In this document: positions 33,824 to 34,384 of the stretch, in pieces
Layout of the letters: each line of letters begins with the position of its first letter
Numbering within the stretch: the first letter of the stretch is position 1
Assembly: GCF_013415885.1 (NCBI RefSeq)
Contig: NZ_CP058910.1
Location: forward strand, 4,278,001 to 4,342,000
Source of the DNA: Halosimplex rubrum
Lineage (GTDB): Archaea > Halobacteriota > Halobacteria > Halobacteriales > Haloarculaceae
Direction: 5' to 3'
DNA length: 64,000 nt
The notes under the pieces: generated by a model
Told to the model about the DNA's origin: nothing
Databases searched by the model: none
Seen by the model: only the letters and a program-made list of their open reading frames with translations
Translations under genes and position numbers: made by a program

Positions 33824-34384
33824 GCGCCGAACGTGGGGACCGAACGGTATGAGCGTGTGGGCCGATTCGATCATCGTGGTCCGTTCGTGTCTCAGTTGTG
33901 CCGGCTGTTTCTGTTCGATTCGGTGTGGACGGAAGTCGAGCGGCGCTCGCGGACGACGGTTAGCGCTGAAAGCCCTCGACCCGCTTGCGGTCGCTGAGGC
34001 GGGATATCCGCGCTCTTCGCACGGCCCGCGCGGATAGTACCCGCTCAGGCGACTGAATAAACGCAAGCGCGCCTCGCCCTTTCAGTCCGCCAGGGACAGC
34101 ACCACACCGCAATCACCCCGCACAGCACCGCGGCCGGCCACGAGCCTCCCCAGCCGATTCGGTGCTCGTCGCAAGCTCCTGCGCGCCTCATCCCTCGCGC
34201 GGCTGTTTCGAGCGGCTCTCACAGGGTTCGAGCACGCTCGACAGCACGCGCCGACCGCACCGCTAGCTCCACTACCTCTACTGAACGCCGCCAATTCGTG
34301 CGAACGTCTCGCGTTCGGTCGCCATCGCCGTGACACAGACCATCCGCAGGCAAGCGTTTTCACGCGCCCACACCGAGATCCGAT
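33824..34384. other. 561-bp gene-free region with a structured, repeat-like element
   Basis: No coding frame is supported. Positions about 33960-34270 hold a structured sequence with an outer inverted repeat and a long inner hairpin (separate entry), followed by a stretch rich in CGCG-containing words such as CTCATCCCTCGCGCGGC. From memory, sequences of this style recur between genes in many haloarchaeal genomes. The end of the region carries the htpX promoter. Confidence 0.6.
33966..34085. repeat. Structured inverted-repeat element with long hairpin
   Basis: Outer arms CTGAAAG (33966-33972) and CTTTCAG (34079-34085) enclose a small hairpin CCGC-TT-GCGG (33981-33990) and a long imperfect hairpin spanning 33990-34053. 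The two arms of the latter read GTCGC-TGAG-CGGG-TATCCGCGC-like sequences with only single-base bulges; the innermost ATCCGCGC (34006-34013) and GCGCGGAT (34028-34035) pair perfectly around 14 bases. It could be a non-coding RNA, a dispersed repeat or a miniature mobile element. Confidence 0.6.

Follow-up and report, generated by a model that had tools for sequence, protein, structure and literature searches.

In bacteria, REP sequences and BIMEs are mobilised by RAYT transposases, which are of the Y1 type, and BIMEs bind gyrase or nucleoid proteins. In Haloquadratum walsbyi and other haloarchaea, palindrome-associated transposable elements (PATEs) have been described (PMC3119063; see also PMC10544981). 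The repeat analysed here, of which one copy is located in the window (the whole stretch of 64,000 nucleotides under study), shares several features with PATEs. It is haloarchaeal, non-coding, a few hundred bp long and present in many copies of heterogeneous identity; moreover, it contains palindromes and is a target of small palindromic repeats. Like PATEs, it is too short for a transposase and carries no coding gene, as full copies are about 390-650 bp in size and none of them overlaps a called gene. Terminal inverted repeats, which PATEs lack, are also missing from the ends of copies that are 97-99% identical. PATEs have palindromes near both termini; here, about 40 bp separate hairpin 3 from the 3' end, and on the 5' side the palindromic module A starts about 80 bp in, or further in when tandem units are present. 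As to the PATE feature of no target-site duplication/short target oligonucleotide, the junctions of the repeat are resolved to about 20-60 bp and come only from empty sites in other species. However, the repeat does not qualify as a PATE because the defining kinship with the boundaries and palindromes of IS605-type elements was not found. It also differs from PATEs in that its largest palindrome, module A, is internal, and in having tandem 57-nt units and a module B that occurs across the haloarchaea.

With REP/BIME sequences the repeat has in common that it is intergenic and non-coding and that it consists of imperfect hairpins with conserved bulges, which are arranged in modular clusters and tandem arrays. 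In contrast to REP/BIME, the unit is about tenfold longer and archaeal. Furthermore, a RAYT/Y1 enzyme in the same genome is not a constant companion: relative G006 has none and the own Halosimplex genome (G000) has two identical IS605-type copies. The repeat is short, non-autonomous and multi-copy like MITEs, but there are no inverted ends that could be shared with an autonomous transposon. By analogy, the best reading is that the element may behave like a PATE or a REP/BIME sequence.

Layout of the composite repeat

The repeat is composed of a 5' domain with optional 57-nt units, module A, module B with two hairpins and a short tail; all features are given on the plus strand. It resides in a gap of 561 bp between called genes (33824-34384), which matches exactly the gene-free gap of the preliminary description. 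The genes were called by a simple codon-position method, which recovered the expected genes around module A. The copy in the window is about 390 bp long and extends from 33888 to 34281, with approximate ends that are based on near-identical copies in relative G002 and on the orthologous flanks in G004, G005 and G006. Matches in the own genome span positions ~33874-34286 (L010, L028). The ends were read from the G002 copies L112/L115 and L116/L117/L118/L120 (97-99% identity), which start with (T)GCGAG or (T)GCTTG and terminate in CCTGTAC or a close variant. There is no inverted relationship between the left end, (T)GCGAGTTGAGCAG..., and the right end, ...CATCACCTGTAC; the element copies likewise lack an ORF, a conserved promoter and a match in Rfam. 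According to copy comparison, the 5' domain (33888-33965) is related to TGCGAGTTGAGCAGTGRTTTCTG....GACCGCA.TCGACAGCAAGCG. In other copies it precedes one to five tandem 57-nt units (arrays in L118 and L007); the window copy has no such array ahead of module A.

Module A (33966-34085) is closed by the outer arms CTGAAAG (33966-33972) and CTTTCAG (34079-34085). The preliminary description had placed a nested hairpin with these arms at exactly this position, which is right for the hairpin, but it covers just one module of a bigger element. The 120 nt of module A fold with -57.6 kcal/mol, compared with -42.4 +/- 3.3 kcal/mol for dinucleotide shuffles (z = -4.65), and none of 200 shuffles was equally stable. 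The long 64-nt hairpin that had been announced was located at 33990-34053 (GTCGCTGAGGCGGGATATCCGCGC...GCGCGGATAGTACCCGCTCAGGCGAC), with about 23 pairs and a helix showing compensatory changes. In the favoured fold, module A forms one nested stem, in which the left arm CGCTTGCG (33982-33989) pairs with the right arm CGCAAGCG (34062-34069). The window copy is the only one among the aligned own-genome copies that has T instead of the consensus C at 33986 and A instead of the consensus G at 34065. This long-range helix is supported because the swap hits both partners. The small hairpin of the preliminary description can indeed form by local pairing of GACC..GGTC, but only as an alternative to the long-range helix. 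In L051 (G013) and L056 (G008), an inverted copy of the right arm of module A (CTGGTGGATCGAAAGGGCGAG) follows, which gives rise to a larger nested palindrome.

Module B lies downstream of module A and has the layout CCTCCCCARCCGAYT-hairpin-CTCRTCCCTCGC-hairpin-CAGCGCGCGCC, or CCCCGCACAGCACCGC...GCCACGAGCCTCCCCAGCCGATT-hairpin-CTCATCCCTCGCRCGG-hairpin-GACAGCGCGCGCC when derived from the aligned copies. Copy alignment and pattern searches delimit its linear core CCCCGCACAGCACCGCGGCCGGCCACGAGCCTCCCCAGCCGATT (34117-34160) and the conserved CTCATCCCTCGC (34187-34198). Between them lies the variable hairpin 2 (34157-34192), which is closed by GAY...RTC with Y/R covariation. The variable hairpin 3 (34203-34244), in which the hairpin is kept while the stem sequences differ, is followed by the terminal GACAGCACGCGCC (34240-34252, from copy alignment). 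The weakly conserved 3' tail GACCGCACCGCTAGCTCCACTACCTCTAC (34253-34281) reaches the ...CCTGTAC end of other copies. Module A is also seen without module B and vice versa, and copies of module A are present on haloarchaeal plasmids as well. Small palindromic insertions inside the modules were observed in L270, L272, L273 and L276 (e.g. GAGAGCAAGCTCTCCTGAGCCCTCGTTCGCTCCGCTCACGAGG), and they resemble the SMR elements that attack PATEs in Haloquadratum. The 3' end of the element is frequently bordered by a second Halosimplex repeat, module C, as in L115, L117, L118, L268, L272, L275 and L277. Module C (CTGTACTGAGCATCC-hairpin-GGTTCACCG-hairpin-CGGCCTTTTTCACCCATGTTTTTG-hairpin-CAAAAAGATGG) is very abundant, with 250-620 first-look candidates per genome, and also occupies many other loci; it was not found in the window.

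Conservation of the stems

The stems of the element are maintained by compensatory changes. In the inner helix of module A, 8 of 17 pairs vary on both sides among 104 copies, and 1731 of the 1767 cells (98%) are Watson-Crick pairs. By corrected mutual information, the inner-helix pairs are among the highest-ranking of all column pairs. Since the loop occurs in two alternative types, some unpaired columns of module A rank high as well. In module B, 99 of 100 distinct copies have a hairpin 3, although its stem sequences are unrelated. The preliminary description had named a unique sequence with no compensatory changes as the outcome that would speak against it; covariation was found, and the sequence is not unique either (see below).

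The strand tests do not consistently favour RNA. Mismatches in the inner helix of module A are balanced (10 GT vs 15 AC in 1767 cells), while those of hairpin 3 (6 AC, 0 GT) and hairpin 2 (5 GT, 0 AC) point in opposite directions. For the Y/R closing pair of hairpin 2, TA was observed in 120, CG in 37, CA in 17 and TG in none of 174 copies. This strand asymmetry concerns one site, at which window positions 34157-34159 pair with 34190-34192. The minus strand folds more stably in 99 of 102 module B copies and in 112 of 121 module A copies. However, a minus-strand RNA that was argued from these folding energies had to be rejected, since shuffled sequences give an equal strand difference, which is a matter of composition.

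Copies within and between genomes

When the gap sequence was used as the query, about 80 matches were obtained in the own genome, of which about 30 are substantial, the best other copy being 84% identical over 290 nt (E 1e-81). Among the matches that were scored, about 25-35 are recognisable copies, the best of which are 70-86% identical; these copy counts come from searches in which the number of candidates scored in each genome was limited. The repeat family is present in all seven Halosimplex relatives searched. The gap sequence matches 38 of 40 relatives, and matches beyond the genus are mostly short. The core of module B was searched for by exact pattern in 145 haloarchaeal genomes from 59 genera; 50 of these genomes and 23 of the genera have it, the copy number ranging from 0 to 44 per genome, and a reversed control pattern had no match. 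The carriers include Halorussus, Haladaptatus, Halolamina, Haloarcula, Haloarchaeobius and Halococcus. The impression that the sequence following the hairpin looks like dispersed haloarchaeal repeats was therefore correct, as it is multi-copy within the genome and module B is class-wide. A literature search by sequence words yielded no description of the repeat. Among the matches listed, there is no own-genome copy at ~2.53-3.21 Mb, a region that is rich in cdc6/orc1 genes.

All copies are intergenic: none of 79 copies in Halosimplex and none of 106 in other genomes (0/185 in all) lies inside a called gene. The four orientations relative to the flanking genes are about equally frequent (24/20/18/17). 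The stable hairpins between genes might suggest a role for adjacent genes, as a cis-regulatory leader, as a transcription terminator or as a 3'UTR structure, but these two results speak against it, and it was rejected on the random orientation. The neighbouring genes are also unrelated, and the element is missing before the orthologous M48 gene in relatives; we regard such a role as highly implausible.

The repeat has been gained or lost at orthologous sites, as comparison of the genomes indicates. Three genomes (G000, G004 and G007) have a copy upstream of the M48 gene; the copy of G002 is degenerate, G005 and G006 have none at this site, and G003 has another sequence there. L018/L141 is a reciprocal pair of filled and empty sites, and the L120 site is filled in G002 and G003 and empty in five other genomes. 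All empty sites stem from between-species comparisons. Moreover, G002 harbours copies of 97-99% identity with shared ends at different loci, namely L112/L115 (98.8% over 431 bp), L117/L120 (98.2% over 379 bp) and L116/L118 (98.3% over 344 bp). In at least one relative, these sequence comparisons show recent duplication or homogenisation of copies. The near-identity of the G002 copies could partly be produced by gene conversion. The best paralogues (85-99%) are mostly more alike than orthologous copies (74-95%), which would fit turnover or gene conversion. In L106 (G004) and L139 (G003), the sequences on either side of one copy correspond to two separate loci in relatives, and therefore copies also act as rearrangement breakpoints. 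At the G007 site that is orthologous to L115 (L290), an ORF for a membrane protein of about 70 aa lies between similar end sequences, where G002 has the repeat. The idea of a cassette was rejected as unproven because the shared 3' sequence also starts the independent module C.

A candidate mobile repeat and its rivals

The search for a mobiliser covered the own-genome TnpA/TnpB loci and the TnpA loci of the genus. Ends shared with IS605-type elements (24 TnpA/TnpB loci, 1.5 kb flanks) were found at chance level only, as in the reversed control, and kinship with IS605 through shared ends was rejected. The same holds for an autonomous element sharing the 5' end, as the recovered loci were ordinary or truncated copies, and for a relation to phage PATEs, as the phage collection contained no halovirus match and chance-level matches only. 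The own genome has only two Y1 genes, which are identical and are each located beside tnpB as an ordinary IS605 pair. These TnpA copies (L061/L062, G000:C1:107578 and 2014427), with identical scores and tnpB alongside, represent a recently duplicated IS605-type transposon. No Y1 match was obtained in G006 or G001, though both carry the repeat. The presence of the repeat in G006 without a Y1 match weakens the case for a present-day Y1 mobiliser acting in cis or in trans.

The element is probably a non-autonomous palindromic mobile repeat. It is multi-copy and strictly intergenic, orthologous sites of relatives lack it, and near-identical copies occur at different loci. Of the three options that the preliminary description had offered, the palindromic mobile repeat and the miniature element are supported, whereas the structured RNA gained no positive support. 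The hairpins would be recognised as folded DNA, either single-stranded or cruciform, by a putative transposase or recombinase that acts in trans and would not be encoded by the element itself. By analogy only, an HUH enzyme (Y1/IS200-like) would be the most natural candidate mobiliser. Copies landing in genes would be purged, and homologous recombination between copies may both homogenise them and rearrange the chromosome. A broader and rather doubtful extension of this reading is that the repeat belongs to a class of mobile elements that are non-coding, structured and modular, occur across the haloarchaea and have a non-IS605 mover, and in which module B could be a minus-strand RNA or ssDNA bound by a conserved haloarchaeal protein.

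The copies might instead be structured non-coding RNA genes, or give rise to a processed RNA from one strand, perhaps the purine-rich minus strand. Conserved linear cores between variable hairpins look RNA-like, the CA and TG counts at the closing pair of hairpin 2 imply wobble on the minus strand only, and strong expression in the reverse direction has been described for a PATE of a Halorubrum lacusprofundi virus (PMC10544981). We nevertheless consider this unlikely. Composition fully accounts for the more stable folding of the minus strand, and the mismatches are balanced in module A and opposed between hairpins 2 and 3. No AT peak resembling a promoter is conserved at a fixed distance from either end of the element, a search with Rfam covariance models returned nothing at the gathering threshold (only chance matches, E > 1), the orientation is random, and copies at the same site diverge and are lost in relatives. 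A mobile repeat is also distinguished from an element that the host maintains for chromosome organisation or DNA binding and whose spread would be due chiefly to gene conversion and recombination, not to transposition. The latter, which we judge improbable, would agree with the many modular and exclusively intergenic copies, with stems that are almost purely Watson-Crick, with homogenisation within genomes and with copies at rearrangement breakpoints. It would also agree with a weak clustering of strands, as those of the 37 own-genome copies along the chromosome form 13 runs, fewer than in shuffled orders (p = 0.02). However, the patchy spread over genomes and genera fits a selfish element better, the sites differ among species of one genus, and an empty site cannot be filled by gene conversion.

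Overall, one exact core of 27 bases is common to about one third of the sampled haloarchaeal genomes, with up to 44 copies each, and no Rfam family or PATE end accounts for it. The copies of the repeat serve as natural breakpoints for chromosome rearrangement. If the repeat spreads without a visible transposase, a conserved non-coding element would point to an as yet unidentified mobilising enzyme.
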